Below are positions 2,726 through 56,954 of a stretch of DNA of 64,000 nucleotides, in pieces; positions within the stretch are counted from its first letter, which is position 1; each line of letters starts with the position of its first letter. The notes under the pieces were generated by a model. It was not told the DNA's origin and did not search any database. It was given only the letters and a program-made list of their open reading frames with translations. Made by a program: the position numbers and the translations under genes. This DNA is from Aphrocallistes beatrix (lineage: Eukaryota > Porifera > Hexactinellida > Sceptrulophora > Aphrocallistidae): NCBI GenBank assembly GCA_963281255.1, contig OY725497.1, positions 1,116,001 to 1,180,000 of the forward strand, given 5' to 3'.

Positions 2726-3907
2726 CTAAACCAATAGAATCCTACGAAACCTAACCTTATTAAGAACCTTCTGACACATGACGAAACAAATCACTACCGC
2801 TGCTAGCATAGCCCAGAAGAAACTCAGGTTACGAAGTCTATCCTGGGTTATCTCGAAGTCAGGAAGTTTTCTTTGCAGATTGATAACATCCACATTGACT
2901 TTCTCGTCGGTTTCTTTCAAGTTCTCAGGAATTCTATCCGCAGCTCTCTGGTGAAAGCGATCCCACTTTACTCCTCTCTGTATTGCATCCACGTAGTAAC
3001 ACACACGACAATAATGCTCCACTTCCCATAACACTCGATTTGGTTCTTCAAACTCGGGATCAAACGGCTTATGCTTCCACTCGAAGTAACTGTTGTATAG
3101 CTTCTCATTTTGTAGGAGCATTTTCAAATAATTGGCTACATCATGAGGTGTGTTAAACTCTGCCACATCAACATAGGAGCCATTAGGTACCACGCCCGCT
3201 ACGTCAACTGTTCCCATCCAAACAGGTAGGACTCCAGCTTGCATTGCTTGGTATATCTTATCGGTTATAAATCCTGGAGAATCCCCGTTTTCAAAAGCGA
3301 GATGTATCTTGTAGTCTCTGATCGCTTCCACTTTGGTGCACACTCTTCCTTTGCACTGAGGCCATTCCATGTTGTGGAAACAAGTGCTCGGAGCAAACAC
3401 TCCTATCACTTTATCGATTGCCTTTACATACTCGTTACGGTTATTCATTGGATTGCAATTCCTAGCCACAAAGGTAGCATGTGGTTTGGCATCATTTGGC
3501 TTCTCTACTTTCTTAACTGAATCCATGTTTGGCATCAATACCCATGGGATGTCTGATCGTCTGTCGAGTAGGGATGTAGCTTGAAAATGATGCTTCAAAA
3601 ATTCAATTTTGAGCAAATGGTAATAATGTTGTGGCTCTCGAGATCCTAGAATCTTTATCGGGTTACTTGAGTTTGATTCTGTGGCACTTTTCACATCTCC
3701 ATCACCCCTCGCTACATAATATTCAGCATCTACCTTTTCAGGATTGGCTGAAAACTCGCAAGGGATGTCACATTCTGCCACTCTGCCAAGATGTCTATCC
3801 CAAATAAATTCAGGAATTATTTTTACATTGATTGCATCGAGATGCATGTAAAAACCAAAAGATAGGAATAACAGTAATTTTAAATGATTCATTGTTAACT
3901 GTACCAA
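2726..3907 (-). CDS. GT10 family alpha-1,3-fucosyltransferase-like protein
   Basis: A 393-residue single open frame. Enzymes of glycosyltransferase family GT10 transfer fucose from GDP-fucose to GlcNAc-containing glycans in the Golgi. The family signature is at about residues 205-232: FENGDSPGFITDKIYQAMQ followed by AGVLPVWMG, which matches the nucleotide-sugar-binding block of the family (FEN...TEK...AG..PV..G). An N-terminal hydrophobic stretch (about 8-24) would act as signal peptide or anchor, and Met6 is an alternative start. A conserved-looking YCRVCYY cysteine pair lies at about 299-305. Unusual for GT10, a second hydrophobic segment (about 362-378) near the C-terminus is followed by a basic tail, which suggests a C-terminal membrane anchor. 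It is intronless with no internal stop, so probably functional. The substrate cannot be assigned from sequence alone. Confidence 0.8.
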   Translation of the reverse strand: MVQLTMNHLKLLLFLSFGFYMHLDAINVKIIPEFIWDRHLGRVAECDIPCEFSANPEKVDAEYYVARGDGDVKSATESNSSNPIKILGSREPQHYYHLLKIEFLKHHFQATSLLDRRSDIPWVLMPNMDSVKKVEKPNDAKPHATFVARNCNPMNNRNEYVKAIDKVIGVFAPSTCFHNMEWPQCKGRVCTKVEAIRDYKIHLAFENGDSPGFITDKIYQAMQAGVLPVWMGTVDVAGVVPNGSYVDVAEFNTPHDVANYLKMLLQNEKLYNSYFEWKHKPFDPEFEEPNRVLWEVEHYCRVCYYVDAIQRGVKWDRFHQRAADRIPENLKETDEKVNVDVINLQRKLPDFEITQDRLRNLSFFWAMLAAVVICFVMCQKVLNKVRFRRILLV

Positions 3908-4388
3908 TAGGGCAGCTATCTGTTTTAATAGTTTTCATGCGCATACTCGAATAGACTGATGGAACATTAATAAGTGTGTGTGGTCGCTTTGAAAAGGAAT
4001 GCATTGGTCTAGCATGATGCAAAACAATATTTACACACTCTCACAATCAATACTAAACTTATGATTGCTTTCTATCACCTAGGAAGTGAAAATGATCATA
4101 TTCGGTTAGAATTTACTTTAAAAAGGTCAGTCGGCGTCGAAGTGGTGAAAATATAACTTATAATAAACGTTTTATTTCATCTCTTATGAACTCAATTTTC
4201 AATAAAAATCGAAAAGATTATCATAAAATAAAAGTAGTATTCCCTCCCTGGATTAATTTTGAATTGAGTAATGGCTAATCACATTCGCCCCACACAAATA
4301 TGTATAATAAGATTGAATGTGCGTTGCTAATAACAGGAAATACTTTGTGAAGGCATATATACATATATAAGTATAAGGACATACCTAT
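3908..4388. other. Intergenic spacer upstream of the fucosyltransferase
   Basis: AT-rich, with no gene or clear repeat seen. It should contain the promoter of the minus-strand fucosyltransferase, but I cannot point to a convincing element. Confidence 0.4.
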
Positions 4389-7591: not shown

Positions 7592-10110
7592 CATAGCCTA
7601 CTTAATATAAGGCCTGACAGTAAATGTACCATGGATGAACAACAAGATGGGAAATTTTATTTTCTATAATCCAGTGAAATTAAGTTATTAAGTTAACCAT
7701 GCATCTCTAATACTCCCAAACATTACTGCCCTGTTACCCTGTGGTTAAAATTATCATGTATAGTGAGAATGGTGATTGGATATCATAATTTAATATTAAT
7801 AGTACATACAAACTGTACATTCTATAATATAATTAGTAGAAATACAACACACAACAGAAATAATAGCTTTCTTTCTCATCCTCTCTCCTCACCCGGACTC
7901 TTGCTAGCACTAACACACATTATGTTTATAATAGATGAATCAAAGGCACCAAGAAACTACATATAGAAATAAGAATTAACAAAGTAATACAAATAAACAA
8001 GTAGGAAATACAGAAGTAAACTAATAATTAAGAAAATTTCTTTAATTTACGTTTTTCTACAACCTTCGAAAGGACCTGAGAATTATAATTCTTGACTTTA
8101 TTTGCGAGAAAGCAATTCGATGAGGTAAAGACAAGTTTCTGTAAGATGCTCCAATTGAATACTTCACAGTTAACACAATAAGACTTCCAAATATTAGTAT
8201 CACGATTATCACTATCTTCCAAGTACATCAATGTGAGTTCAACTAATATTTTTCTAGAAGGTCCACTTACTAGCTTTGCCAACAGCTCTTTATCATTTTC
8301 GATGGCATAAAATGTCTTCCATAAAACAAGAATAGAATTCAAAACAGGTTCAGATGGGTACTTAAGTCCGCCACGGTCCGTTAACTGCAGAAGTTTAAAC
8401 TCAGAATCCGAGGCTAAATCAAGAAGAAATTCTTTATCAACTGTAAACAGATTAAGACAGATATGACATGGTTTTGATTATTTTAGATATTGATGGACAG
8501 AATAGCCTGCAATAAAGGCCAATGATTGAAGCACCTGTTGACTGCATTCAATGGTTGATAGATCGGGAATTTCATCAAGAAATGGCTCTAAATCGAATTC
8601 AACATCACTAGTGGAATAAGGAGAAGAAAATGATTTGACAAATGACTGAATTGATGGCAAACAAGAGTCTTGTCGGTCAGCAAATATATTTAATATGCTA
8701 GACAGTTTGAGTCGACGCTCGGTTTCGAGAATTTGAAGATAGGAGACATGGTAATTAGAACCCGACATCATACGATATAGCCCAAAGTGGTGTTCCAATG
8801 GATCTGTTTGTAAAAAGGAGGATAACACATAGGAAAACCCACAATTTTCTAATGTATGAACATGAGGAAGAGATATACAGTTTAAACTCTGAAGATACTT
8901 ATAACAAGCAGGAGATATCAGATGCGTCTTAATAGCCATGATTTGTGTTATAATATTGTATCGTCGTCTATTCTTGGGGATAAATGTATTCTCTAATTAA
9001 CAGAGGATGAATTGCAAACGCGCTAATTCTGAGCTATCACTATGAAGTTCATTATGATGAAGTAAATCATTGATGACTTCCTTAATATGCTCTTTGGCTC
9101 GGGGTATATGAAATGATTGCTTGGTGTTTTTGGAATTAGAATCGTGTTCTAAAGCAAGTTCCTGCAAAACAGATTCAATTTGTCGGATGTCATTAATTGC
9201 AGCAATAGAAACGGGAATGTTTTGCCCATGAAAATAGGCTGAGGTAGATAGATAGGAATTGATTTCAAGGTACAAATTCACAGACATATTTCTTTCAGTC
9301 ATCTTAGCAAGAGCGAACGTGATGTTATTTTCATCACGAAACCATACAAACCCACTATTAGGTAGTGAAATCAAGGTTAACTTATCTTTCAGAGGTCTTT
9401 TAGAGAGTTGATGATGAACTTCCTTTTCTCCTCACTTTCGGATGTCAAACTAAGTTGCAGGGTTTGGTTCATCAAATCTTCTTCCTTTTCATCGTATGAC
9501 AAGCGAGTCCGTTTGGTAGATTTAGTTGAGTAGTAAGCTGGACAGCCAGGTAGTAGACTTGGAACAGTACCTTCCTTTAGCATTGGCTTCACGCGTGGTA
9601 CTTCAGTGAAAGTACCATCTCCTTTTGGTACTTTGAAAGTAGAGTCTATGTCTTCTTTCTGGAAATGCTTGATGCATACATAAACAGCCTTGAGGTCACC
9701 TATATCCTCACGATGTAGAGCACGTGTCCAGGCATATTTCAGATCAGGCGGACTTTCAGGCATCTTGAATACTGGAACCCGATCACCAACGTTGTAGTTA
9801 CTCTTGCATCCAGGGACAGAACAAGAGTTCGGCATGTCGAAATGAGTTGGAATGAGTCGGGATGAGAGAAGCTAATATTAATTAAAAGCAGAGAGAGATT
9901 AAAAGTAAGCGAATGGTATGCGTAATATAATAGTTTTGAATAATGTGATCAAAATAGTATTCATTCAAATAATATTTACAATAAATATGGTTCATTATTA
10001 TAATATTTTCGATATTAAATATTATGGTTTGATAACTATAACCATCTTGTCCTTCATCCTTGGTCCATAATTTTTAAGTTACTGTCAGGCCTTATATTAA
10101 GTAGGCTATG
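7592..10110 (-). mobile_element. P element with terminal inverted repeats and target-site duplication
   Basis: The ends are CATAGCCTACTTAATATAAG (7592) and its inverse ending CTATG at 10110. Similarity extends past GGCCTGACAGTAA and to subterminal CAACAAGATGG / CCATCTTGTCC. The directly repeated flank CGTGAGG (7585-7591 and 10111-10117) is a target-site duplication; reading it as GCGTGAGG gives the 8 bp typical of P elements with a one-base ambiguity at the end. The element is 2,519 bp and carries a minus-strand THAP-type transposase. Intact termini with a clear duplication suggest a fairly recent insertion, although the coding region is broken. Confidence 0.88.
8028..9835 (-). pseudogene. 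P-element (THAP9-like) transposase, frameshifted and missing its core
   Basis: Frame 9835-9389 begins with a THAP zinc-binding DNA-binding domain: C5, C10, C54 and H57, ending in EGTVPSLLP. Frame 9374-8997 continues as the linker or coiled-coil part. Frame 8939-8478 starts with SPACYKYLQSL and ISLPHVHTL, the entry to the transposase domain, then jumps directly to SFLQTDPLEHHFGLYRMMSG, the C-terminal signature of P transposases. Frame 8342-8028 extends upstream in the same frame through LTDRGGLKYPSEP, the terminal region. Most of the RNase H-like catalytic domain and the GTP-binding insertion that normally separate these blocks are absent. At least three frame changes are present. The total span (about 600 codons) is shorter than the roughly 750-900 residues usual for the family. 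It is not expected to be functional, although the ends could still be mobilised in trans. Confidence 0.82.
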
Positions 10111-14058: not shown

Positions 14059-14067
14059 TACTACTTA
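14059..14067. repeat. Left target-site duplication of the foldback element
   Basis: TACTACTTA is repeated exactly at 19383-19391. A 9-bp duplication is typical of Mutator-like and Foldback elements. Confidence 0.9.
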
Positions 14068-14095
14068 ATGGATGTGAAGTTAGCAGCGCGAAAAG

Positions 14096-14828
14096 TGAGC
14101 ACGACATAACTGGTTATAACTTTTCGCTTAGGCTGATTATCCGGTTCAAATTTGTAACACAGCATTATGAGCGAGGTAGTTTTGTATCATTCCAATTTTT
14201 TGTCCCTTTCTTCAAAAACCACTTCACAGTGACTTTGCAAAAATTCCCGATTCTCACTATACAAATTCATATACGATTTGACTGAGCACGACATAACTGG
14301 TTATAACTTTTCGCTTAGGCTGAATATCCAGTTCAAATTTGTAACACAGCATTATGAGCGAGGTAGTTTTGTATCAATCCAATTTTTTGTCCCTCTCTTG
14401 AAAAACCACTTCACAGTGACTTTTGCAAAAATTCCCGATTTTCACTATACAAATTCATATACGATTTGACTGAGCACGACATAACTGGTTATAACTTTTC
14501 GCTTAGGCTGAATATCCAGTTCAAATTTGTATCACAGCATTATGAGCGAGGTAGTTTTGTATTTTTCCAATTTTTTGTCCCTTTCTTCAAAAACCACTTC
14601 ACAGTGACTTTGCAAAAATTCCCGATTTTCACTATACAAATTCATATACAATTTGACTGAGCACGACATAACTGGTTATAACTTTTCGCTTAGGCTGAAT
14701 ATCCTGTTCAAATTTGTATCACAGCATTATGAGCGAGGTAGTTTTGTATTTTTCCAATTTTTTGTCCCTTTCTTCAAAAACCACTTCACAGTGACTTTGC
14801 AAAAATTCCCGATTTTCACTATACAAAT
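14096..14828 (+). repeat. Left terminal arm: four ~187-bp tandem repeats
   Basis: Units start with TGAGCACGACATAACTGGTT at 14096, 14283, 14471 and 14658, with spacing 187, 188 and 187 bp. The last unit is slightly truncated. Each contains TTATAACTTTTCGCTTAGGC, CATTATGAGCGAGGTAGTTT and CACTTCACAGTGACTTTGCA. Each unit happens to be open in one frame, giving a repeated ~63-residue peptide starting MTEHDITGYNF, but no start context supports translation. The units are near identical to those of the right arm, inverted. Confidence 0.95.
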
Positions 14829-14950
14829 TTATGAATATGCTAATATTTCTATTCTTGACGCGCTGAATCAGAATTGCAATATAATTGTGTACTAGTTCTA
14901 AATTTCTATGTGACTAACTTCATAGTATATTTACTATGGAACTAAACTTC

Positions 14951-15583
14951 TTATTTTGAAAGCCCTTGAGTTCTGGTGTTAACCTTGATGACAGGCTGAA
15001 AGTGGCTCATGTTTAACCTCAAATAAACTCTGCGTTCTGTTAAATCATGTGTAGATTTAGCATCAATGAATCCATGTCCTGAGAATTTCAACCAGGATTG
15101 GTCCTCATCATTGTAGACAAAGATATCTGTTCTCAGGATGATAGCTGCTAAAAATATTTCTAGGTCTGTACCCCAAGATCCTACTCGGTCCATTTTGCTT
15201 GCTTTCAGATAATCTTCAATCGAATTGCAACGTTCCTCTGGCAATAAATCTTTTCGAGCTTGAACGTAATTGGTGGCTAATTTCCTATATTCGCCCTTCA
15301 TTTTATCAATTATTAACTCCCGTATTTCTTTATGATTGTAATCTGTTCCAGTAATTATATATGATAAAGAGCGAAACAAGCAATTCCCATCAGGTGAAAT
15401 CCTTTTTTCTTTTGTAGGAATTAATTGTCGAATCTCAAGAGATTTATCAGCGGCTTCATTTTCATATATTATTCCTGTTGTAAATGTTAGTCTTATCACC
15501 TTGCACTTTTCCCTTTGCCAACTCGGAGTTACAGTCTTGAATTCTCCATGATAATAGGTTTTACATCTATTATAGAGAGAGTT
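14951..15583 (-). CDS. OTU-domain cysteine protease of the foldback element
   Basis: OTU proteases remove ubiquitin or ubiquitin-like proteins, and OTU domains occur as passengers in several transposon groups. Counting from the GTG codon at 15499, the catalytic Cys is C40 in SPDGNCLFRSLSY, the classical DGNC motif. A conserved GSWGTDLEIFLAA helix follows at about 108-119, and the catalytic His is H166 in LNMSHFQPV. The frame is open without an ATG from 15583. The upstream stretch SLYNRCKTYYHGEFK reads as coding, so the true start lies upstream or is supplied by splicing. A 44-codon frame starts at ATG 15664, overlapping the transposase stop (TAATG), and ends just before the OTU frame. This could be the original 5' part separated by a frameshift or a small intron. 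It lies directly downstream of the transposase on the same strand. Confidence 0.78.
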   Translation of the reverse strand, partial: NSLYNRCKTYYHGEFKTVTPSWQREKCKVIRLTFTTGIIYENEAADKSLEIRQLIPTKEKRISPDGNCLFRSLSYIITGTDYNHKEIRELIIDKMKGEYRKLATNYVQARKDLLPEERCNSIEDYLKASKMDRVGSWGTDLEIFLAAIILRTDIFVYNDEDQSWLKFSGHGFIDAKSTHDLTERRVYLRLNMSHFQPVIKVNTRTQGLSK

Positions 15584-15662
15584 TCATCTGGAATAGAATC
15601 GTCATTAGACAAATCAGTGTACAATGTTACGGCCTTTGAGTTGACTTGAGGGCTAGTGACCA

Positions 15663-18064
15663 TTATGTAAGGCAAATGATTAAGTTTCTGTGTCTTGGAT
15701 TCTTGAACTTTTTAAGTGAAGCTTGTTTGTTAGAGTTCATTGGCTTTCCTGGTTTGAAGTATGTCTGTCTTGGTTTCTTCTTCTTCCACATTTCATCAAT
15801 TTGATCATAATCTTTTGGTTGTTGTGTTTTTTGTCTCTTGAGAACTTTAAGGCTCAATGGATTGAATGCAAATTCGAATGCCTTTATTCTACCAACAATA
15901 CCTTCCCTTAATTTGCGAATGAAATCTCCCGGTCTTAGTTTGCATTGTTTGTGTAAAATTGTTATCTTTACAATTCTCATCCAGTTTTCTGCAATTGCAT
16001 TCGTGGATGTCACGTGATATTGACCTGGGTGCAAGGATGGGCCTAGTATAATACCTGACCAGAGGGGACAAACTGGCATGTAATGAGTTACAAGAAATGA
16101 TGGTAAATCTGGAAAGTAGTAGTTGTTTTTAGGAGTGCTTTCATTCTGTTCTTCCATTTCAAATATGCCAACAAGCGTCTTGCAGTTCATTAATTCATTC
16201 TGAAAATGTATACCAAATGGAGATCTTGATTTGTATGTTTTGCTATCTCCCATTTCATTGGGTAATGATTCATCTAGTTCTGTGATATTTTCGAGATCAA
16301 AATCGAACTCCTTATCAAGACAAATAGAGCTGTTAAGTTTATCAAAAGATTCTTCAATTTTTGGATAGATCTTTTTTGATAAACATACCATACTCAATGT
16401 GCCAAATAACTGATTCATTTCATCCATCGTTGTACAACTCGTCATTCGAGCCATTATGAACATGATCTTTTGTTTCCTCTGTTTATCCATCCTGAACTTA
16501 GAACTTAGTTTATAGCTAAACCGATTCATTATGTGTGCCGAGCATATGTGTATTATTACTTTTATTGAATTAGTAGAATTGCTCTTGTGAATAGTTTCCC
16601 AACATTTATTTAAATACCATTCTAAGTTTTGTTTGTTAAAGGCATTGCAGACACCATGTAGCATGGCCCAACTAAAGTCTACCTCAACTTTATTTGGTAA
16701 TATCTCGCTACTCGTCACCTTCTTTACGTCATATAACCATCGGTTAAGCAAATGTGAAATTTCTATGTTTGTCTGCTCGCTAGATACCATCTCAGCAAGT
16801 GGAATTGGGCTTACATGTGATAGAGGATGCTTTACTGAGATAGCGTAATAGAGGATTCTTTTTCCCAAATGATCTAATTTCCTGATAACTGAACCAGTGG
16901 CATCTAAATGTAATGCAAAAGATTCTTTTTCCAATTTTTTTAACAACATTATCTGTTCTTCACTATACAAGTGAATGATGAATGGGGAATGACTTATGAA
17001 TTGAATGTAGCCGTTAAGAGTATTCCCAATGATTGTGCTCATATATGACATTTGGGTGCTAATGATGTCCTGCCACATATCATTATTAAATCGGGATTTT
17101 TCAAAGTGCTGTGACTTGACCTTTCTAATGACATCGGTTGAGTGTAAATAATTGAAGTTTCCTTTTTTGGCAACGGATAAATTTTGTGAATCAACAAAGA
17201 GGGAATAATGAAGATTAGAAGGACTGGAAAGTTCAAGCTGTTTCGCAGTGGCTTCTCTTCTGTCTCCAGATAAATGTCGGCTGTGCGAAATTAAATTAGA
17301 TGAATGTTCTTCAGAGATTGATCCAGTAGCAGTATAATTAACGAGATAAAGATTGCTTGCGTTTGTTTGCGGTGTTTCCATTTCAAATTTGAAGGTGAAA
17401 CAATTACTAAACTTGCAAACTGCTGCTGCAATAAGAAATGTACTTCCACGTCTTGAATAGCTTTTGTTAATTCGATGGTATAAAAATTTGAGAACACAAA
17501 ACGGGTAGTAAACGGAAATTTTCTCATTAAATAAGGTTGTCCATTCTGACTTCAGAGCACTTTCTGAAAAATTTGGAAAAATTCTGAACCATTCTTGGCC
17601 TGTCAATCCAAATTCACCTCGATTTGTCGACTGAACTATGTGCATTTTACTAGATACCTGATCAGTGGATTCAATGCTAATAATTGAGCTTATGTCTGAT
17701 TCTAGTGAATTATCAGAATGGGAGAAAAGCACGTTATGATTACGAATATCTGGTAATTCAGAAATGTTGATACTGATAGGTAGAGTAAATTTATCTTTAG
17801 GTAGTGTCAATGCTTGTGTTACCTGAGATTTAATATTCCAGTTGTTGTTTCGCCAGATGTTCATAAGTTTCGCCCGTAGTTGCAAGCGATTTCTTCTATA
17901 AACATATTTTGCCAGCTTACCCCAGATAGAAGAGGTATCCCGCCAATTTCGTGTTTTAAGCAATTCGAGATTGTTCAGAATTAATGAACCATGACCAGTT
18001 AACTTGGATAAGGCATCGGTCATCTTTGAGACAATCTCGCTACCTTGCTTGACATCACCAGTTT
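15663..18064 (-). CDS. Mutator-like DDE transposase (main exon)
   Basis: A 786-residue frame from ATG 18023, open upstream to 18064 (TGDVKQGSEIVSK). It catalyses cut-and-paste movement of the element. Motifs numbered from ATG 18023: D374 in LHLDATGSVI, D449 in VEVDFSWAML, the Mutator-type C-x2-H pair C494/H497 in HICSAHIMNRF, and E679 in TSTNAIAENWMRIVK. This is the D-D-E triad of the superfamily with its C/H motif between the second and third acidic residues. A CKFSNC pair (203-208) may be part of an N-terminal metal-binding fold. The C-terminus (about 740-780) is strongly basic. There are no internal stops. The exon should begin at 18064 after a TTATAG acceptor and be spliced to 18419-18158. 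If not spliced, translation from 18023 still gives the catalytic domain. Confidence 0.85.
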
Positions 18065-18157
18065 CTATAATAAATTCTCTGAATCAAATATATCATTGCT
18101 TATTATTAGAAACATCAATAATAATACGTATTATGTAGTATATGTAAAATAACTAAC
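18065..18157 (-). other. Predicted 93-bp intron joining the 2A exon to the transposase
   Basis: On the minus strand the donor is AATG|GTTAGT (intron from 18157) and the acceptor TTATTATAG|AAACTGG (intron ends at 18065). Splicing is phase 1: AAT G + AA ACT GGT joins ..PGPRYN to E-TGDVKQGSE.. without a stop. This is inferred from splice signals and frame only. Confidence 0.6.
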
Positions 18158-18419
18158 CATTGTATCTTGGTCCTGGGTTCACTTCTACATCTCCGCAAAT
18201 AATAAGGAATAGAGATAGAATTGTTAAGATGGAGATCAAAATGTTGCATGTAACAAATCCAGGAATAGCTATCATTTTGCAGCATCTTGATTTTGTAGAT
18301 TTCCGTGAATTGAATATGCCAATGTGGTTGCGCCATGTACAAAGATCAACCCCCATTAGTAAATGCAAAACTGAAATGTTATAGGCGTGAAATTCGAATA
18401 AGTTATCAATATTATCCAA
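18158..18419 (-). CDS. Leader exon with 2A ribosome-skipping motif, 5' exon of the transposase
   Basis: An 87-codon open segment from ATG 18419. A hydrophobic stretch (about residues 55-75, FVTCNILISILTILSLFLII) leads straight into CGDVEVNPGP (residues 75-84). This is the consensus of 2A peptides, D(V/I)ExNPGP, where the ribosome releases the upstream product before the final Pro without a stop codon. The 2A core lies at 18168-18194. Separation between G83 and P84 would free an 83-residue hydrophobic leader from a transposase starting with Pro. In some animal retrotransposon and immune-receptor genes, N-terminal 2A sequences overlap a signal peptide, and the hydrophobic run here allows the same reading. 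The motif match is seen directly; its activity is inferred. Confidence 0.75.
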
Positions 18420-18610
18420 TAACCAAAGAATAATCGTATTAACTATATTTATTTGGATTTATCAGAATATTATGCTATAGTCACAGAAGCCAATATAATG
18501 AATACGTAAAAACACTCGCCCAAAATTAACTACAAATGACGACAATTAACAATCTATGACAATAGCATTTTGTACCTAACTCCACTGTGTACTACAAATA
18601 TGCAACTCAA

Positions 18611-19353
18611 ATCGTACATGAATTTGTATAGTGAAAATCGGGAATTTTTGCAAAGTCACTGTGAAGTGGTTTTTCAAGAGAGGGACAAAAAATTGGAATG
18701 ATACAAAACTACCTCGCTCATAATGCTGTGATACAAATTTGAACTGGATATTCAGCCTAAGCGAAAAGTTATAACCAGTTATGTCGTGCTCAGTCAAATT
18801 GTATATGAATTTGTATAGTGAAAATCGGGAATTTTTGCAAAGTCACTGTGAAGTGGTTTTTTAAGAGAGGGACAAAAAATTGGATTGATACAAAACTACC
18901 TCGCTCATAATGCTGTGTTACAAATTTGAACCGGATATTCAGCCAAAGCGAAAAGTTATAACCAGTTATGTCGTGCTCAGTCAAATTGTATATGAATTTG
19001 TATAGTGAAAATCGGGAATTTTTGCAAAGTCACTGTGAAGTGGTTTTTTAAGAGAGGGACAAAAAATTGGAATGATACAAAACTACCTCGCTCATAATGC
19101 TGTGATTCAAATTTGCAACTGGATATTCAGCCTAAGCGAAAAGTTATAACCAGTTATGTCGTGCTCAGTCAAATTGTATATGAATTTGTATTGTGAAAAT
19201 CGGGAATTCTTGCAAAGTCACTGTGAAGTGGTTTTTTAAGAGAGGGACAAAAAATTGGAATGATACAAAACTACCTCGCTCATAATGCTGTGATTCAAAT
19301 TTGAACTGGATATTCAGCCTAAGCGAAAAGTTATAACTAGTTATGTCGTGCTA
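18611..19353 (-). repeat. Right terminal arm: four ~187-bp tandem repeats, inverted
   Basis: Units end with GTCGTGCTCA at 18792, 18979 and 19167, and with GTCGTGCTAA at about 19352. Spacing is 187-188 bp. They are the inverse of the left-arm units with only scattered substitutions. The outermost unit passes into the unique terminal TTTTCGCGCTGCTAACTTCA..CATCCAT, ending at 19382. Confidence 0.95.
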
Positions 19354-19382
19354 ACTTTTCGCGCTGCTAACTTCACATCCAT

Positions 19383-19391
19383 TACTACTTA
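19383..19391. repeat. Right target-site duplication of the foldback element
   Basis: TACTACTTA, identical to 14059-14067. Confidence 0.9.
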
Positions 19392-21429: not shown

Positions 21430-22465
21430 ATGAATGAATTGGAGAAGAGACAAGTTGTTGAGACCTATTTTCACAATGGACAAAGTGCGTCTCAAATCTG
21501 GAAGCTTGTAAAAGATCTCGGAATATCATGAGCCACAGTCTACAGGCTCGTTAAAAAGTTCTAAGATGGTGGAAGTAGCGACAGGAAATTAGGTTCTGGA
21601 GGTGAACTGTCAAATAAGAACCGTAGTGCGAAGAGAAAGATCACTGATCGTCTGCGCCGCAATCCAGCTCAGTCAGTCAGAAAAATCGCGAGATATATCG
21701 GAATTCCAAAATCCACGGCTCAAGATATCGTCCAAAGGGACTTGAAACTGAGAGCAAGGAAGAAGGAAAAGAAACAAGCGCTCACAAGTCCCCAAAAGTC
21801 AAAAAGAGAGACAAGATCCAGAACTCTTCGTCGATCGTTGGACCGCGACTCGCACAGACGAGTCCTTTTTAGCGGTGAAAAATATTTTTTGATGGATCAG
21901 CCCCTTAATCGCCAAAATGATCGTGTTTACATCAAAGAAGGGACAAAGAAGCCTCTGAATAAGAAAACGATCGTGGAAAAGAATAAATTTAGCCGAAAAC
22001 TCATGGTCTGGGCAGGGGTAGCCTATAACCTAAAAACTGATCTGGTTTTCTTCAGGCAAGGAGAGACTGTGAATGCGGATCGGTACCAAAGTGCAATTTT
22101 AGCTCCTTTTGTCGTTCCCCTTTGTCGTCAGCACAACCTCGTTTTCCAACAGGACTCCGCCCCTTGCCACACGGCAACCAGAGTCGCAGAATTTTTGAGG
22201 ACGGAAAATATATTTTTGGACGAAAGAAGATTGGCCGCCAAACTCCCCTGATCTCAATCCCCTTGACTACGGTATATTGGGTATGCTGGAGCAGGAGGTG
22301 TACCGTAAGCCACCAAAGAATTTGCAGGACCTGGAGAGCAAAATTCTACGAGCTTGGGAGAATTTAGATCTGTCCAAAGTGAACCGGTGCACTGATCGAT
22401 TTAAGGACGATTGCGACAATGTGAAGATGCAAAAGGCAGCCATTTCGAATGAAAATGTTTTGTAA
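21430..22465 (+). pseudogene. Tc1/mariner-superfamily transposase relic
   Basis: The open frame starts at ATG 21430 (MNELEKRQVVETYFHNGQSA) with an N-terminal helix-turn-helix. It is broken by TGA at 21529-21531, TAA at 21562-21564 and a frameshift near 22225-22235. The second helix-turn-helix (ITDRLRRNPAQSVRKIA) precedes the DDE domain: FSGEKYFLMDQ carries the first-acidic region, VFQQDSAPCHTA the second Asp, and, after the frameshift, WPPNSPDLNPLDYGIL the third acidic residue. The third position is Asp within about 34 residues, consistent with a DD34D-like mariner relative. Full-length family members have about 340 residues and this relic spans that length. Confidence 0.85.
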
Positions 22466-24300: not shown

Positions 24301-24458
24301 CTCCCACTTTTCAGAGGATTATCTCTAATTTTGGTGAAACATATCCTGAAAAATACCAGTAAGATAAATTAATGATGGGTGAATAATTTGATTTTCTTCT
24401 TGAAAGGAAAAATGTTTTAGAACTCAGATAATACGTATATATTATCCAAGCATCAACT

Positions 24459-25301
24459 ATGTGTATCCTCTTCTTCGCACTCTCACCTCCTGCTATCGGA
24501 AACACGAAATATAGATTCATATTGGGATCGAATAGAGACGAAGCTTATGAGAGGCCCACTCAGACCTTAAGTTACTGGAATGAAAACCCTCAGGTGTTAT
24601 GTTCTCAAGACTTGAAACCAGGTCGTGGAAATGGGACTTGGCTCGGTATAAATAGCAAAACTGGGCAATTCGCTACACTCACAAACTACCGTGTTCCGCG
24701 ATCCCATAAACAGGACATCAATCTTCAGAGCAGAGGGAGACTAGTCTCAGACTATCTCCAGTCTTCTGAATCTCCAATGGAATACACCGCTAAGTTTATG
24801 GAGAATAGCAAATCGTATGGAGGCTGCAGTTTAATTACAGGTAATCTCGGCACAAGTGCTGATAAGCCCCAGCTCATATATAGCACAAACGCAGAAGATC
24901 ATGATATAGCTGTGCTGTACGATGGAGTTCATGGGTTGAGTAATAAAACACTAAATTATCCTTGGAAGAAGTTAGAAACTGGGAAAGAGAGTTTCTCAAA
25001 GGTTATCTCAGAATGGAGCGATCCTGAGCAACTGATTAAGGAGATAGTTCATGTAATGTCAGATGGGACGACATATAAAATCGACCCGAGCATTGCAGAT
25101 ATGGACTGGAAGGATGACTGGAAGATACCCTTGAGCTCTGTGTTTGTTAAGAACTCACATCATAGGTACGGGACTAGAACAATTTCGGCGATACTCGTCG
25201 AGGAAGATGGGAGGGGTTGGTACTATGAGCAGTCTCTTCAGGAGCCCATTGACTCAGATAACCTTATCTGGTCGAAAGAAATGGTCAATTTCAAAATTTA
25301 A
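24459..25301 (+). CDS. TANGO2: TANGO2 homologue (NRDE family)
   Basis: 280 residues, close to the roughly 276 of human TANGO2, in one uninterrupted frame. TANGO2 proteins act in Golgi/ER organisation and mitochondrial or lipid and heme metabolism; the exact biochemistry is unsettled. The defining NRDE motif is at residues 25-28 in LGSNRDEAYERPT, after the conserved start MCILFFAL with Cys2 (the Ntn-hydrolase-like position). LKPGRGNGTWLGINSKTGQF, LTNYRVP and the RGRLVSDYL segment (about 90-100) follow the family order, and the C-terminal GTRTISAILVEEDG block is present. It is complete with no frame damage. The start is fixed by the family N-terminus. An AATAAA poly(A) signal lies at 25496-25501. 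Unlike vertebrate TANGO2 it has no introns, so it could be an expressed retrocopy or the native gene of an intron-poor genome. Confidence 0.93.
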   Translation: MCILFFALSPPAIGNTKYRFILGSNRDEAYERPTQTLSYWNENPQVLCSQDLKPGRGNGTWLGINSKTGQFATLTNYRVPRSHKQDINLQSRGRLVSDYLQSSESPMEYTAKFMENSKSYGGCSLITGNLGTSADKPQLIYSTNAEDHDIAVLYDGVHGLSNKTLNYPWKKLETGKESFSKVISEWSDPEQLIKEIVHVMSDGTTYKIDPSIADMDWKDDWKIPLSSVFVKNSHHRYGTRTISAILVEEDGRGWYYEQSLQEPIDSDNLIWSKEMVNFKI

Positions 25302-25679: not shown

Positions 25680-28600
25680 ATGAATTGGGTAGGAGGCACT
25701 ATGAGTCGGATACGTGGACGGGACGATAAGAAAATTCAGAAGGAGTTCTTCGAAAAGAAGAGATATGAAAAAACGCTTGACACCATTCCGTTGGGACTCC
25801 AATCCCCTACAAAAAAGAAAGAACAATCCATCAGTCAGGATCTGCTCTCTCTACAAACCGTCCTGCAAACACATAGAGAAGATAACAATAGGACGAATAA
25901 GCCACTAAAACAGCCGAACAAGTTGGATCTCAGACCTAAAGTTGGACAGAAGAGAACCAGCTCCCACGAAGTGATGCAAGGAGGTGAAGGGAGCGAGAGA
26001 AGTCAGATGTCAGAAGGATTCCAGAACTTAGAAACTCCGACTAGTTTTCTAGACTTGAAGCGATGGAGAGGAGAGAACAAACCGTACAAAACTCTAGGTA
26101 TGTGTAAAGTCACGAACCTCAGACATTTCCAAGAGCTGGAACAGACTGTCTACAGGAGGGAGGGAGTGGAGGTAGAATCCGAAAAAGAGAATGTGCACAT
26201 TCTGAAAAATGATTCTCTACAAATGAGCACAGGAGGAGAATTGGAAGAGAGAGGTGTTGAATTGCTCAGAGATGAGAGTAGAGGAAGCAGTGAGTTATTG
26301 AATGTTCTTAATTTTTTTAGATAATTAAATAAATACAAGCACACTTCGCTTGCTTGCGCTGCGCGGCTTGCGGACACTGCGTGTCCGCAGAGTCGCCCTG
26401 CGGGCGCCTGGAGTTACTCAATCTAACATATTTTGGGAATTTTTCCTTTATATAAATATCGTAAACAAAGGTCAACGAATAATTTCTCATATGGATCCGA
26501 AAATATAATATTCGAAATCTAGAGCACTAAAAATCCCATGTCAACCGTTGGAAGCTAGTCTCTAACCCATTTTTGTAAATTGTTTACTTTATGTATCTAT
26601 TGTAAACAAAGGTAAACAAATTGATCATCAATTTTACTCGAAAATGTGATAATCGAAATCAACACCCCTGAAAACCCCATGTCAACCGTTGAAAGCAAGT
26701 TTCTATCATATTTTTGAGATTTGTTTACTTTATGTATCTATTTTAACAAAAGTAAACAAATAATTTATCATATAGATCTGAAAATATGATATTCGATATC
26801 TACGCCCCTCTAAAACCCCATGTCAACCGTTGGAAGCTAGTCTCTAGCCTATTTTTGTAATTTGTTTACTTTATGTATCTATTGCAAACAAAAGTAAACA
26901 AATAATTTATCATATAGATCTGAAAATATGATATTCGAAATCTACACTCCTGAAAACCCCATGTCACCCGTTGGAAGCTAGTCTCTAGCATTATTTTCAA
27001 AATTCATCAAATGGTGTGAAAATATGTATATAAAGGTGTGAAAATATGCACATAATCTTTTTTATTGCCATACACTATAATACATTTAAGATATCAAACA
27101 TAAGTTGCTTTGAAGTATTAATAACAATGACGATCTATTTATTGAGTGTCGTACTTGTACAATGATTTCTATTGAGATAGTGTGTCATATATTTTGTATA
27201 GAAAAGGTGTGAAAAATTGTTTTCCATTTTTTTTGCAGAGGTGTGGAAATTTCGCTTAGATCTTCGAACTTAATCCTAGATTCATCATTTGACACCTACA
27301 GTATGTCCCATAATTATTGAGACTAACATAAACGACGATATTTTGCCCCACGATAAATATATGAATGTTTTAACAAATAAATCTAAGAAAGTTTTGTTTA
27401 CGTTTAATAATCTATCTTTGAACCATTGTTCTCCACCACTAATTTACACCTACGACGCATTGATTTGTAGTATGGAGCTAAAAACTCCGGGGTGATAGAA
27501 TCCCAAATTTCTTGGATTCTCTTTTCTAGCTGTACCAGGCTGGTAAAGTTGTCTCTATACAGCTTTTGTTTGATCCAACCAAATATATTCTCAATCGGGT
27601 TAAGATCGGGACTTTGACTTGGCCATTCTCGTTGATTTTTCTTCATATTTTTCTCCATCCAAGCTTTGGCGATCCTTGAGGTATGCTTAGGGTCATTATC
27701 CTGAATAAGAAACCACCTATCACCATGAAAAACTAGAGCTTGTTCAATCAAATGCCACTCCAATATGTTGACGAAGAAGGTAGCGTCCATATTCCGCTAA
27801 AAAACATAGCGGGAAGGTCCCCATACTCGAAAAAGCTGCCCAAATGTGTAATTTGGTGGAGTGCTTTGTTGTGTAGTCTCAATAATTATGGGACACACTG
27901 TACATGCCAATTTTCGTATTTCTACGACCTGCCAATTCTTCAATCAATTCGAACAAACAAACAAACAAAAAAATCCTAGCATTTTAATATATAAGATTAA
28001 TATGTTCGTATATCTCCAGGCATACAATGGAATAAGAAGATGTGCGGAGAATCGAACTCAGTGACAGATACGAAGTGGCTGGAGTTCCTTCATGGCTGTA
28101 ATAAGCCCAGGCAACAAACTCAAGTTCTATCTGAGAACGCACAGGTAGATATCACCACACAATTTCCATCCATTCATCTTCCTGTCTCTTCATCCCGCCC
28201 CCTCAGTCCCCATCTCAACCCAGCTAACTTGGAGTATTACGAGAGAGAAGACCTGATGGAGTTTGAACGTATGAACATGATCAAGCCGCGACCAGGGAAC
28301 TCAGAAGATCCGCTCTACCTCACTCTCACTTGCAACAAGGACAGCTTCAAAGGGTACAAGAGGCCGAGGATTGAGACTAATTTGGGGTTTACCTCTAGTT
28401 TGGGAGCAAGGCCTGTGTCTGGTGGGAGGTCGGGGGGCTACTTGGATGAGAGTGTATTCGCGACCCCCTCTGACGGAAACATCGTCAGACCGGACGGAAT
28501 GCTCACAGAGAACCCTCTCCCTCTTTCTCACAAAGTAGCTCTGAGGAGTATTAAGGACTTCGTTCTAGAGAAGTCTCCCTTGCGTGAGAGCGAGGACAGC

Positions 28601-41399: not shown

Positions 41400-41918
41400 C
41401 GAGAGGCAATCGAAAAGTTCTAATCCCATGATAATTTTTTCTAGTTGAAATGAAGAATCAGTATTAAAGTAATTATAATTGTTCAAAGTACTCCCTATCT
41501 ACATTTATACACTTTTGTAACCTTGCCATCCTTGAGTAAAATGCTTCTATGTACATTTCTTGGGGTAGGTGTTTGAGATACTGAAAAATCGAGGTTCGTA
41601 GCTCACTCCGATCGCGGAATCTATTCCCTCGCAAATGATCTATTAGCTTTTGAAACAGCCAGTTGCAGGGAGCTAGGTCTGGACTGTATGGTGGGTGAGG
41701 GAGGACTTCTATCCCATATTCGGCATGTTTAGACTTGGCAACCTTTGAATTATGGGCTGGGGCATTATCATGCAATAATTTTATTCCACGTACTCCCGTC
41801 CTTGGTCTTACCTTTTTATAATGATCAACTACTTGTGGCAGCACATATTTCGCGTAAAAACTTCCTGTAATGGTCCTCCCTTTTGGTGTAAGGATTAGAA
41901 CTTTTAGATTGCCCCTCG
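41400..41918 (-). mobile_element. Deleted mariner element (519 bp) with catalytic Asp lost
   Basis: Ends CGAGAGGCAATCGAAAAGTT and the inverse (41890-41918), flanked by TA (41398-41399, 41919-41920). The minus-strand frame 41844-41473 is the C-terminal third of a mariner transposase: LLHDNAPAHNSK and HPPYSPDLAPCNWLFQKL. The last catalytic Asp of mariner (APSDY) is replaced by Asn (APCNW). The N-terminal two thirds are missing. Confidence 0.88.
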
Positions 41919-41941
41919 TATTACGTATTATTATTATTATT

Positions 41942-42745
41942 AACCTTAAAGTAAGAAGAAAATTTAATGAAATAAAATAACGGCATGCTTATCAATAATA
42001 ATATTAATCTATGAATAAAAGCGGTAATACTATTTCTCATAGGCTGCTACGTACTAAGCACCGAGTAACCTAGGTTGCTAGCACATTTCTAGCAATCTAG
42101 GTTGCTCCAGGTGTTCTATGTAGCAACCTAGGTTGCTGTATAGAAAAACCCTCATTAAATAGTCAGGCATTATAATTAGTTTTCGCTGAAACATCTGAAA
42201 TAATTATAAATTCTATGAATTCCTATTTATTCTTAGATTTTTAAGAATTCCAATTATTATGGTAGTAACTACATTGTTAATTAGATATTGACAGAATATT
42301 GATCCTCTAGGTTATGCTGAAATGGATATGACCTGATAAAGTTGATTCGCTTATAATAATGAGGCTGAAGGTATGTGACATGAACATCTCAAACAACTCA
42401 TATGGCAACACTGAAATGGAAAATTAACTTGTATTACACTGTTCTTGTTTAAAGATGTAGCAGTATTGATTGGAAAATTTAGAGGCTGCATCTGTGTTGA
42501 TAATTTAGCCTCGAGATAATCAATTTTACGTCTTTTAGTGGATCCACTTCTAAGAATGAAGAAGCTCCTTCTCCCATTAATAATACAATTCTATAAATTA
42601 TTATAGTAAATGTTAGAATAAGAATTAAATTTGTAGTATTTACAAAGAAAAGTCTATTAATTCTTGAATAGCATTAAAATCTCAGGCGTATGCGTCTCGT
42701 CGTTGAGGCGCATGCGCCTCGTCGATTTTAATATATGATGTTAGT
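41942..42745 (-). repeat. Inverted repeat B, right arm
   Basis: The inverse of 38090-38925, from CCTTAAAGTAAGAAGAAAAT to CGTCGATTTTAATATATGAT. It retains GTTGCTCCAGGTGTTCTATG and GAAGCTCCTTCTCCCATTAA. A tandem GGCGCATGCGCC-type palindrome is at about 42695-42725. Confidence 0.85.
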
Positions 42746-49835: not shown

Positions 49836-52182
49836 TAATTAGTGAAAATTTCTTAATATTTCTAAGCTAGCTAACAACTTTTTCCAAATCTCCTCGTAAA
49901 AGTGTGAAATATATATATAGTATACAAGTACTTGTAATTACATCTCGATTGTTGTGTGTTAGTTTGCCCGGAATTTATTGAAGTGATGATAAGAGCCAGA
50001 GCTATTAGAATTTGCAATGATGACGGATTTTAGACTGGGGAGAAGATCAATTGTTTTTTGTACTACATGTTAAATCCGATTTCTACTACACATTCAAAAT
50101 TCAAATCATCCAGTTTGTACAGTGGAGATTGTTTAGATTTAATCTTACAAATAAGGATTGCAACTAGGGCTAATTATTTCCTGAATTTAAAACTATCGTT
50201 TTTATATTATATCAATGCAACGTCTTGTTAAGATATTCGTACCATACACAACAATTAGTTATTTGTGCCCCAGTTGTGCCAAGAAAACTATACTGGATGT
50301 GGGTTATTTCCTACACATCCCACGAAAAAGAATGGCAAACAATAGAGTAAGAATAAAACGATGGAAGGCACTATATACGTATTTTGATTTCCTTACATCA
50401 TAATTAATAAAATAATTAGAAACATGAATCAAATAATATCTGTAGGTAAATTTTAAGAAAACATTTTTCGATTGTATATACAGTAGAATCTCTATAAGTG
50501 GGGGACCTCGGGACGGCGAGAATATCCCTCCCCATTCTCTATTTATGATTTTGCACCGTAATTACAAGACATTAAGACAAAATGGTTTGAATAAATCCAA
50601 AAATAGTAATTTCAAGTCGTATTAGTCACTTTAGTCAACAATACATCTATTTCGTTCATTTTCTGACTCTAGATGAAAATGTTGTTCATACTGATTATCT
50701 GAAAATTATTTTCGTTCAAGTCAGATCACGTCAAGAACGGAGCTTGTGAAAATATGCAAATTGTTCAGAAAACCGCTCTTATCACTTCCCCCCGTTAAAG
50801 AGGCTAATATGAATGGGAAAATAATTTTTAACTCCATTTCCCCACTTATAGTGGTCCATTTATATGGAAACGGATAACAGGTCCCCAAATTGCCTTACAT
50901 GTGGAGGTTTTATTGTATTTATATTATTAGACGAAACATCCATCAAATGATTGTGCTGATCTACAGTATTTCCCTTTTCTACTCAAAATTGTGCATTTGT
51001 CCAGTTTTAATTAATGTTAATATTCAGACTTGTTTCCTCCTTAATAATTAAACTATTACAAGAATGTACAAGCGTCTGGTGATAAGCACATGAGGATAGA
51101 TGATATTGCAGGAATGTGATTAAAAGTGATTATGTCCCCAATAGTACTAGGCACAATATATACGTATCTAATTGAGAAATAATTTTATCTCTGATACAAT
51201 TATGACAAGAAAACTGGGAAGTGACCTAATAGCCTTAGGAAGTAGTTACTGTAATTTTTAATGAATATGTATATAGTATCTAAATGGTTCTTCTAGATAG
51301 ACAGACCACCATGACAATATTTATATCGAGATTAGGATAGCATCACTCTGAAATCATAACGAATTGAATTGATCGCAAGGTTTAAATTGGAAATGAGTAA
51401 TCAATTTGTAGAATATTAGATGTATCCAAGGGATGTACAAGATACTTAGAATTTGGTTGTGATACCAAATATCAGTATCTGGTAGTATTATAGACAAGTG
51501 GTTCTTAGCGGGATCCATTTAAGTAGTTCTGGGGTCGCTACTCAGACTGTCCTCATTTTAAGATGGTAGTCCTAGGTCCAATTATTATTTGCTGATTATT
51601 GTTTGCTGACGGAACAGTACATTGCCATATTAAACCTTTTTTAGTGAAATCATTTACATAATTAAAATTAGTCGAGTTCTAATATAATGTTCTCAAGTTA
51701 CATTTATAGAAAAAATGTTCTCTTGGGACCCAGACCGGAATACTATTGGACAATTGTTCAGGTACAATTAATATGATATAAAATTACTCTTTGAAATAAT
51801 TATGTTTTGAAGATCAAAATAAATGCATACATATATTTGTAATCATATTGAAATATTGTAAGAAAATGTTGTCGTAATATGTAATACTAATTGTCACATT
51901 TAAATGTAAGAAATATTAATGAAAATTAATTGAAATATTTTCTAAATTTAGGAAGTAGTATTTATGTCACAATATATAAAGGATTATTTCTATGTAAAAA
52001 TGTTGCTGATAAAGTTATTTTGCATAAATTTAAATTGATTCAACTTGTTGCGACACCAGTAATATGGACATGTACCTGGTCACAAGACAATCTAATGAAC
52101 GTGTAGCTTACATTTAATTATGCAATGTACAACTAAGCAGTCTTAAGTTGCTTCGTATAGTAAAATCTATAAATAGAAAAAA
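49836..52182. other. AT-rich intergenic DNA upstream of the kinase
   Basis: No gene or structured repeat is seen. CTATAAGTGGGGGACCTCGG (50491) is a possible decayed MITE end. The kinase promoter should lie at the right edge. Confidence 0.4.
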
Positions 52183-53139
52183 ATGAAACACATATCAAGA
52201 AGCTTAAAATCGTCAAAAATACAAATCACTAAATTCATTAAAATGGAAAGCCTAATAATCAAAGAAAACAACTTTTTTGAAGATTACACCATTCATTGGG
52301 ACAAACCACTCGGCACAGGAATAAGCGGGAAAGTTTTTGAATGTGTAGATAATTACGATTATAAATACGCAGTAAAAATCCAACCAGATTGTGAAGAGGC
52401 AAGGCGAGAAGCCCAAATTCAATGGGATTGTCGGGGTTGCGATCACGTGGTAGAACTAGTTGACGTGTACGCTAATCTAGTTGAAGAAGAAGACAAGCCA
52501 TACCTATACATAATTATGGGATATGTGAACAATGGTGAGTTTTACGGGTACTTGAAGGAGAATCACGTCAGCGAGGAAGAAGCAAGGAAGCTGGTGAAGC
52601 AAATCATTCAAGCGATTGATCACCTGCATTCGCTGAATATTGCACACAGAGACCTGAAGCCCGAAAACATCCTCGTTCATGTCATGTATGGCAGAAAGAT
52701 CCTGAAGCTAACAGACTTTGGGTATGCGGAAATAGACAGCAGAAAATTCACTGAACCGCTTTACACTCTCTACTACGCTGCACCCGAGGTACTTCTAAAT
52801 GACTCCCGGTTCAATAAGAAGATAGAGGAGGGAGTCACATTGTATGACAAAAGGTGCGATCTTTGGTCTTTGGGAGTGATAACTTACATCTTGTTGATGC
52901 GCTATCCTCCCTTTTCACCCAAAGGCAAGGGTGGAGAGATGACTAATGAGATGTACCAATCCATTGTCACAGGCAGTCCATACTATGTCGAGTCAGACTG
53001 GGACAAATATTCGGACGAGGCGCATGATTTTGTATTCGGTTTACTCCAGTCAAATCCAGGAGACAGACAGAGTGCTAAAGAGCTCCTACAGCACCCCTGG
53101 ATAAGGCCTAAAAATTCTTTTGAAAATCTATATTGGTAA
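52183..53139 (+). CDS. MAPKAPK2/3-like Ser/Thr protein kinase, intronless, catalytic domain only
   Basis: 318 residues. The kinase domain (about 36-306) has all catalytic features: Gly loop LGTGISGKVFE (43-53), ATP-binding K65 in YAVKIQ, E76 of helix C in EARREAQIQ, HRD at 155-157 in IAHRDLKPENI, DFG Asp178 in LTDFGYAE, and APE at 200-202. The ARRE, VELVDVYANL and LTDFG..YYAAPEV blocks place it with p38-activated MAPKAP kinases 2 and 3. Two departures stand out. In the activation loop TEPLYTLYY aligns with TTPCYTPYY of MK2, so the position of regulatory Thr222 is Glu191. The protein also stops right after HPWIRPKN, without the autoinhibitory helix, export signal and p38-docking tail of MK2. 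Met21 is an alternative start. It lies in the spacer of inverted repeat C. It could be a retrogene. Confidence 0.88.
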   Translation: MKHISRSLKSSKIQITKFIKMESLIIKENNFFEDYTIHWDKPLGTGISGKVFECVDNYDYKYAVKIQPDCEEARREAQIQWDCRGCDHVVELVDVYANLVEEEDKPYLYIIMGYVNNGEFYGYLKENHVSEEEARKLVKQIIQAIDHLHSLNIAHRDLKPENILVHVMYGRKILKLTDFGYAEIDSRKFTEPLYTLYYAAPEVLLNDSRFNKKIEEGVTLYDKRCDLWSLGVITYILLMRYPPFSPKGKGGEMTNEMYQSIVTGSPYYVESDWDKYSDEAHDFVFGLLQSNPGDRQSAKELLQHPWIRPKNSFENLYW

Positions 53140-56090: not shown

Positions 56091-56428
56091 TTATGAAGGG
56101 AGGTTGTCTTCCTCACTCTCTCCGCTGCTTCCAATTGGAGGCATCAGATCTTCCAGTTCATCGTAGCCTCGATGTCTCTTATCCGTCTTTTTCTTCTCTT
56201 CTCTTTTAAGAAATTCATTTTGGACCTTAATTACACTCCCTCCATCGAAACACTTTGAATATTCCATTAATAGTTCCTCATTTAATTTGAGAAATGAATG
56301 TCCCCATTTGAATTTAGACAATATAATATCAGCGTCTTGCCTCAGACCTAAGATAATGAGTGCTGCTGATAGCGCCTCCACACAAGACAGTTGACATGCT
56401 TGACCGAACTTCACCGGATTAGCAGCAA
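56091..56428 (-). CDS. TSR3: TSR3 homologue, terminal exon only (18S rRNA acp-transferase)
   Basis: TSR3 transfers the aminocarboxypropyl group from S-adenosylmethionine to a hypermodified uridine of 18S rRNA in late small-subunit maturation. On the minus strand an acceptor TGACTTTACAG is followed by VAANPVKFGQACQLSCVEAL, then LSKFKWGHSFLKLNEELL and MEYSKC, which are the C-terminal family blocks. An acidic tail with ESEEDN follows and ends at TAA 56091-56093. About 112 residues remain. The N-terminal half (SPOUT-like fold and substrate pocket) should be in upstream exons at higher coordinates. I could not find them between 56,430 and 64,000, so they lie outside the window or this is a captured or truncated fragment. 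The exon itself is undamaged. Confidence 0.82.
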
Positions 56429-56954
56429 CTGTAAAGTCATACACATATAGCCATAATATAAGAGAAAGTGGCATATTATCTATTATTGGAATACTTTGCA
56501 TAATTGCAGATAATCGTATAAGCTTTTGGCAGTACCTAATGGCATGAAATATTAATCAAAGCATAATGGGTGCCACTTAATCACTTTATTTATATGATTC
56601 GTCCATAAAACTATGAAAAATTTATTTTGAAAGATATAACTGGGGTAGAGATTCAATGAAGAATTATAGTGGTCTAGACATGATGCAAAATATTAGTGGA
56701 AAACCTAGACACGCAAATATAAGCCCAATAAAGGAATGGGAATAGCTAGACAGTAGACATGTAACACGTATGCATTTAATGGACAAAAATGTAGATAAGT
56801 AATATCATTTGATGTTATAAGATCAACTTGTGATGGGATCTTAGCCCGACTTGATCGAACCTGAAAAAGATTGCGATTCGGATACTGTTGCACATATCAT
56901 TTAGTTCATGATTGTTGTTGCTTTTACTATTTACTTTTTCTAACTCTCTTACAG
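56429..56954. other. Possible TSR3 intron and intergenic DNA
   Basis: AT-rich, with no additional exon recognised on either strand. Confidence 0.4.

Follow-up and report, generated by a model that had tools for sequence, protein, structure and literature searches.

A probable Rehavkus-type foldback transposon with a frame-broken transposase-OTU gene and a candidate 2A leader

Anatomy and surroundings of the element

The window (the whole 64-kb stretch of DNA that was analyzed) was found to contain an element of 5,315 bp at positions 14068–19382, bounded by a 9-bp target site duplication, TACTACTTA (Table 1). In a scan of the + strand of the window this 9-bp sequence occurs twice, both times directly flanking the element. 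At the two ends the outermost 29 bp match exactly as an inverted repeat, and between them and the coding region lie two arms built of a 187-bp unit repeated in tandem. The perfect duplication, the inverted ends and the four repeats of about 187 bp in each arm had been described in an earlier sequence-only reading of this DNA and were all recovered here. Inverted pairs of at least 100 nt from the arms are 91–97% complementary. With one unit as query, blastn identified eight copies in the window, 8/8 of them inside the element, and no further copy elsewhere in the 64 kb. These eight units are 93.6–99.4% alike in pairwise comparison (gaps ignored), with a mean identity of 96.8% within an arm versus 96.2% between arms, so that the two arms have remained similar as one set.

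Table 1. Features of the element and its target site, with positions in the window and the basis of each assignment
Feature	Position	Strand	Basis
Left target site duplication	14059..14067	.	exact match to 19383–19391
Left 29-bp terminal inverted repeat	14068..14096	+	reverse complement of 19354–19382
Left arm, ~3.9 copies of the 187-bp unit	14096..14829	+	Tandem Repeats Finder, 97% matches; unit identities
Frame for an OTU-like cysteine protease (210 aa), C-terminal portion of the transposase-OTU protein	14951..15583	-	Pfam, conserved residues, fold
Third short frame, with transposase-OTU linker	15529..15711	-	SNDDSI stretch matches linker of P0003/P0004 by eye
Transposase frame, 806 aa; D394, D469, C514, H517, E699	15663..18083	-	homologues, conserved columns, fold
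Candidate intron, 93 nt (81 or 114 nt from same donor)	18065..18157	-	GT-AG enumeration
Leader ORF, 67 aa from ATG, hydrophobic stretch and 2A motif	18153..18356	-	homologues P0018 and P0019
2A / StopGo motif DVEVNPGP	18168..18191	-	six-frame motif scan
Right arm, 4.0 copies of the 187-bp unit, inverted relative to left arm	18607..19352	-	Tandem Repeats Finder, 96% matches
Right 29-bp terminal inverted repeat	19354..19382	-	reverse complement of 14068–14096
Right target site duplication	19383..19391	.	exact match to 14059–14067

Host-type genes occur around the element, namely a fucosyltransferase (2726–3934, minus strand), TANGO2 (24432–25301, plus strand), a protein kinase (52177–53139, plus strand) and the C-terminus of a ribosome biogenesis protein (56091–56555, minus strand). 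At 8028–9871 on the minus strand, a THAP domain (Pfam E = 1.3e-11) is followed by three adjacent frames separated by stops, which together look like a decayed transposase, presumably of the P-element type. Tc1/mariner-like transposase fragments were also observed at 21565–22251 (plus strand), 27404–27796 (minus strand) and 41473–41988 (minus strand). The latter two match Pfam DDE_3; the first is Tc1/mariner-like by eye only, its sole Pfam match being Sulfotransfer_1, below cut-off.

A minus-strand gene with leader, transposase and OTU parts

All coding detected in the element is on the minus strand, in the order leader, transposase of probable DDE type and OTU from the right arm. The transposase profile gave no match to PDB sequences, its fold model gave no Foldseek match at E <= 0.001, and an NCBIfam scan of five proteins returned nothing close to the curated cut-off. 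The OTU frame is recognized by Pfam (OTU, E = 5.8e-11) and carries the DGNC box and the histidine of such proteases, with D65, C68 and H194 identical in all three aligned sequences (window, P0004 and P0010). Its fold model, built on 7 sequences and with a mean pLDDT of 71.8 as the best of five models (the poorest scored 53.2), resembles OTU structures, with OTUD3 as the one Foldseek match at E <= 0.001.

In the relatives P0004, P0010 and P0020 the transposase and OTU parts form one unbroken protein, which indicates that the OTU module of the window is the C-terminus of the transposase; P0004 aligns in order with both window frames, transposase and then OTU. In the window this frame is broken twice between the two parts, once on each side of the linker frame, and the OTU frame has no ATG ahead of its catalytic cysteine. 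Because the transposase-OTU frame is broken twice, this copy of the element is probably not autonomous, and the breaks could have arisen from assembly error. The earlier description of the element as complete, in the sense of intact, is therefore not sustained. It had also counted three open modules on one strand; the strand was correct, but the modules resolve into a leader exon and one twice-broken transposase-OTU frame. Its proposal that they make up one unit is in agreement with the fusion seen in the three relatives and with the equal size of the contigs of P0019 and P0002, described below.

The leader ends in GDVEVNPG/P and has a hydrophobic stretch upstream (Kyte-Doolittle maximum 2.6 over 19 residues), so that by sequence it has the form of a 2A / StopGo signal, D(V/I)ExNPGP, as given in PMC4981915. 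A six-frame scan of the window finds the pattern D[VI]ExNPGP a single time, and 100 mononucleotide-shuffled versions of the window do not contain it at all. Stops separate the leader from the transposase, which lies in the same reading frame. Four of the 28 GT-AG pairs that were tried give an open join, three of these using the donor ATG/GTTAGT with introns of 81, 93 or 114 nt, and the leader may thus be spliced in frame onto the transposase.

A search with the leader identified two homologous proteins, P0018 (97% identical) and P0019 (78%), and none beyond this close group was found in the protein search. Both stop directly after PRY(N/K)G, consistent with a retained donor site. The contig that carries P0018 measures 683,317 bases and that of P0019 857,787 bases. 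The same figure, 857,787 bases, applies to the contig of P0002, a relative of the transposase (76% over 51%) that is itself a decayed fragment, its first catalytic D replaced by G. Such an agreement in size argues strongly, though indirectly, for one and the same contig, and on the strength of it the leader is very likely a part of the element and not a chance neighbor, as far as can be judged from sequence.

Relatives and their C-terminal proteases

Two protein searches with the transposase yielded 17 and 47 relatives, 52 of them distinct, while no relative was detected by tblastn in viral contigs (11 pattern matches) or genome contigs (5). The nearest, P0001 (93% over 62%), represents 38 member sequences, a number that would fit a multicopy element, though copies and repeated assemblies look alike in such a count.

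Tails that reach 150 residues or more beyond the end of the transposase core are present in 12 of the 52 relatives. Five of these relatives (P0004, P0010, P0020, P0027 and P0029) have an OTU Cys box, and three of the five also pass the Pfam OTU model. A USP Cys box near the C-terminal end is present in three others (P0014, P0016 and P0022) and is identified by motif only, with Pfam UCH scoring 0.039 on P0014, under the cut-off, and giving no match on P0016 and P0022. P0031, from Mizuhopecten yessoensis, has a USP domain followed by Ulp1 (5.3e-22) at residues ~1024–1490, the USP domain being matched by UCH (3.8e-15) when a piece of the protein was scanned and unmatched when the whole protein was scanned. 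P0044, from Megalobrama, has Ulp1 (5.4e-5) as well as a PHD match under the cut-off. A recognizable ubiquitin/SUMO protease is thus found in 10 of the 12 long-tailed relatives, five through Pfam matches and the other five through motifs. Of the relatives with shorter tails, P0024 has a USP box and P0003, P0008 and P0041 extend to the linker that precedes the OTU domain.

The tails of P0038 and P0039 (171 and 215 residues, respectively) have in common a cysteine motif (QTCTVD / NTCPVD) and WGG; they match no Pfam model above its curated cut-off and are left unassigned here, possibly representing a divergent protease. In the USP Cys box of P0014, P0016, P0022 and P0024 a tryptophan follows the cysteine (N-N-C-W-L-N), a feature which we take to resemble the SUMO-specific USPL1. 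The USP domain of P0031 was seen by eye to have serine at the position of the catalytic cysteine, as if the Ulp1 protease had supplanted the USP protease.

A tree was constructed from 29 of the 53 rows, picked by length and tails, and its midpoint root serves for drawing only and implies no order of exchange. The OTU rows, along with P0049 of Oopsacas minuta, are separated from the USP and Ulp1 rows by a branch with support of 100/99, in a sample of rows that includes four long branches, one of odd composition and P0049 itself, a fragment without tail that is 42% filled. Exchange of proteases (OTU, USP and Ulp1) within this transposase family looks to be new, judging by these relatives. As unrelated proteases sit on one transposase family, this suggests that protease activity rather than fold is under selection.

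Classification, proposed working and alternatives

Placement of the element among foldback-type, Rehavkus/Mutator-like transposons is supported as an assignment by structure, and in this structural sense its earlier description as a foldback Mutator-like element stands. Both the 9-bp target site duplication and the tandem array (minisatellite) in the inverted termini are features of Rehavkus. The inverted end measures 29 bp when identity is required, or ~760 bp when the arrays are counted, versus 26–400 bp for Rehavkus in PMC6446971. In the same source, 9-bp duplications and a PHD finger are given for Rehavkus, and for Phantom duplications of 8–10 bp, a minisatellite in aphids, a MULE domain and often, though not obligatorily, a FLYWCH finger. 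No PHD finger was found in the window frames, and of the 53 rows only P0044 has one, weak and below the curated cut-off. The window frames and the 53 rows gave no Pfam match for the MULE domain, of which Pfam may miss distant members, nor any for the FLYWCH finger.

Among described systems, Rehavkus-1_TC of Tribolium is similar in its 9-bp duplication and in inverted termini made of tandem arrays, with a unit of 164 bp compared with ~187 bp here (PMC10218199), and the PHD finger reported for Rehavkus has a faint counterpart in P0044; however, neither a 2A leader nor OTU is mentioned in the passages of PMC6446971 and PMC10218199 consulted. Tm1 and, by the account of PMC3169594, Phantom also combine foldback termini with a Mutator-type transposase, the termini of Tm1 being foldback-like composites with a 9-bp duplication. 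Tm1-A, in contrast, has FLYWCH and MULE Pfam matches, of which no equivalent was detected in the window frames or the 53 rows, and a motif of ~14 bp in place of 187-bp units (PMC3169594). MuDR-6_HM (MULE group 14, Cnidaria) is a Mutator-like element listed with an "Ovarian Tumour Gene" (PMC6446971, Table 1); it is given without TIRs, its duplication is unstated in that text, and the likeness is one of description, not sequence. Ginger1 has a DDE transposase whose C-terminal protease is either OTU or Ulp1, the two being swapped within one family, but its transposase is Gypsy-integrase-like and no 2A leader is mentioned in the text consulted (PMC2836005), which also records Ulp1 in Mutator elements. 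A transposase_11 protein of Trichomonas vaginalis has a Peptidase C19 (USP-type) domain on a DNA transposase, as do some of the present relatives, although the transposase is of another type and is likened here by description (PMC2836005). Helitrons with OTU or VTD are likewise transposons with a deubiquitinase-type domain, but they are rolling-circle elements without a DDE transposase (PMC9741609). The leader itself recalls those of sea urchin NLRs, N-terminal signal-like sequences ending in D(V/I)ExNPGP which work in skipping and targeting tests (PMC4981915); those belong to immune receptors, whereas the present one precedes a transposase and is known from sequence.

The sequence-only reading had regarded the joining of repeat-array foldback termini, a 2A leader and an OTU protease as undescribed. 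For the termini this is contradicted by Rehavkus-1_TC (PMC10218199) and for OTU by MuDR-6_HM (PMC6446971) and Ginger1 (PMC2836005). For the leader the view is retained, as a literature search, mostly short of full texts, found no report of a 2A-like sequence joined to a DNA transposase. On a DNA transposase, a signal leader of this 2A type looks to be new. In a term search of the text of a 2026 survey of arthropod MULEs (PMC13359780), OTU, foldback, tandem and ubiquitin were absent.

Beyond its anatomy, the homology of its parts, the transposase-OTU fusion of its relatives and the conserved catalytic residues, all of which were observed directly, we consider it probable that the element is a frame-broken cut-and-paste transposon of Rehavkus type, related to Mutator, with one minus-strand leader-transposase-OTU gene and release of the leader by 2A. 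The gene would run from the right arm, its leader exon, a hydrophobic signal-like segment ending in 2A StopGo, being spliced in frame to transposase-OTU. Skipping at NPG/P would free a leader-less transposase-OTU protein, which could enter the nucleus and bind the repeated 187-bp units of both arms, these being the natural candidate sites. The transposase would then excise the element and insert it elsewhere through a 9-bp staggered cut. Where skipping fails, the product would retain the hydrophobic leader and may go to membranes, lowering the nuclear dose. The OTU part may strip ubiquitin from the transposase itself, or from host proteins or repair factors at the transposition complex; the sequence-only reading had proposed that an OTU enzyme could shield the transposase from ubiquitin-dependent removal. 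It is a tentative suggestion, and one we would hold to be rather doubtful, that the leader splits the transposase into nuclear and membrane pools and that a C-terminal ubiquitin/SUMO protease is so strongly selected that lineages have swapped folds (OTU, USP and Ulp1).

The most serious alternative, unlikely but deserving some weight, is that the element is of a Rehavkus or Mutator/Phantom type already catalogued in Repbase, with the species alone being new. The duplication lengths, PHD finger and aphid minisatellite reported for Rehavkus and Phantom, the OTU of MuDR-6_HM (all PMC6446971) and the weak PHD match in P0044 point in this direction, and the failure of the literature search, within its mostly partial texts, to find a 2A-like sequence on a DNA transposase points away from it. 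We regard it as improbable that the leader is a remnant of another element, such as a non-LTR retrotransposon, lying upstream of the transposase by chance. Non-LTR retrotransposons are reported to have 2A-like sequences (PMC4981915; a reference title in PMC12846837), and the link between leader and transposase is here one of sequence, not of transcript; yet the two share strand and frame with an open in-frame splice, and their homologues P0019 and P0002, on equal-sized contigs, show similar divergence (78% over the whole leader versus 76% over 51% of the transposase).

Slightly less credible still is that the two breaks in transposase-OTU are programmed frameshifts or introns and leave this copy functional. 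The frames flanking the breaks are indeed long and open, but they overlap or almost touch, leaving no space for a normal intron, and assembly errors offer another possible cause. We set programmed frameshifting aside because the junction of transposase and OTU is a single continuous frame in P0004, P0010 and P0020.

If the leader works as a 2A signal, this would be the first DNA transposase behind a StopGo signal leader within the literature searched, and it would provide a simple means of setting transposase dose. Were the nuclear and membrane split and the exchange of proteases both true, removal of a ubiquitin-like modifier would be a required step of transposition. The papers on Ginger and VTD (PMC2836005, PMC9741609) ask why transposons carry ubiquitin/SUMO proteases, and the family offers a comparative test of this, as at least three protease types sit on one transposase family and their active-site mutants could be set side by side in a single type of transposition assay.
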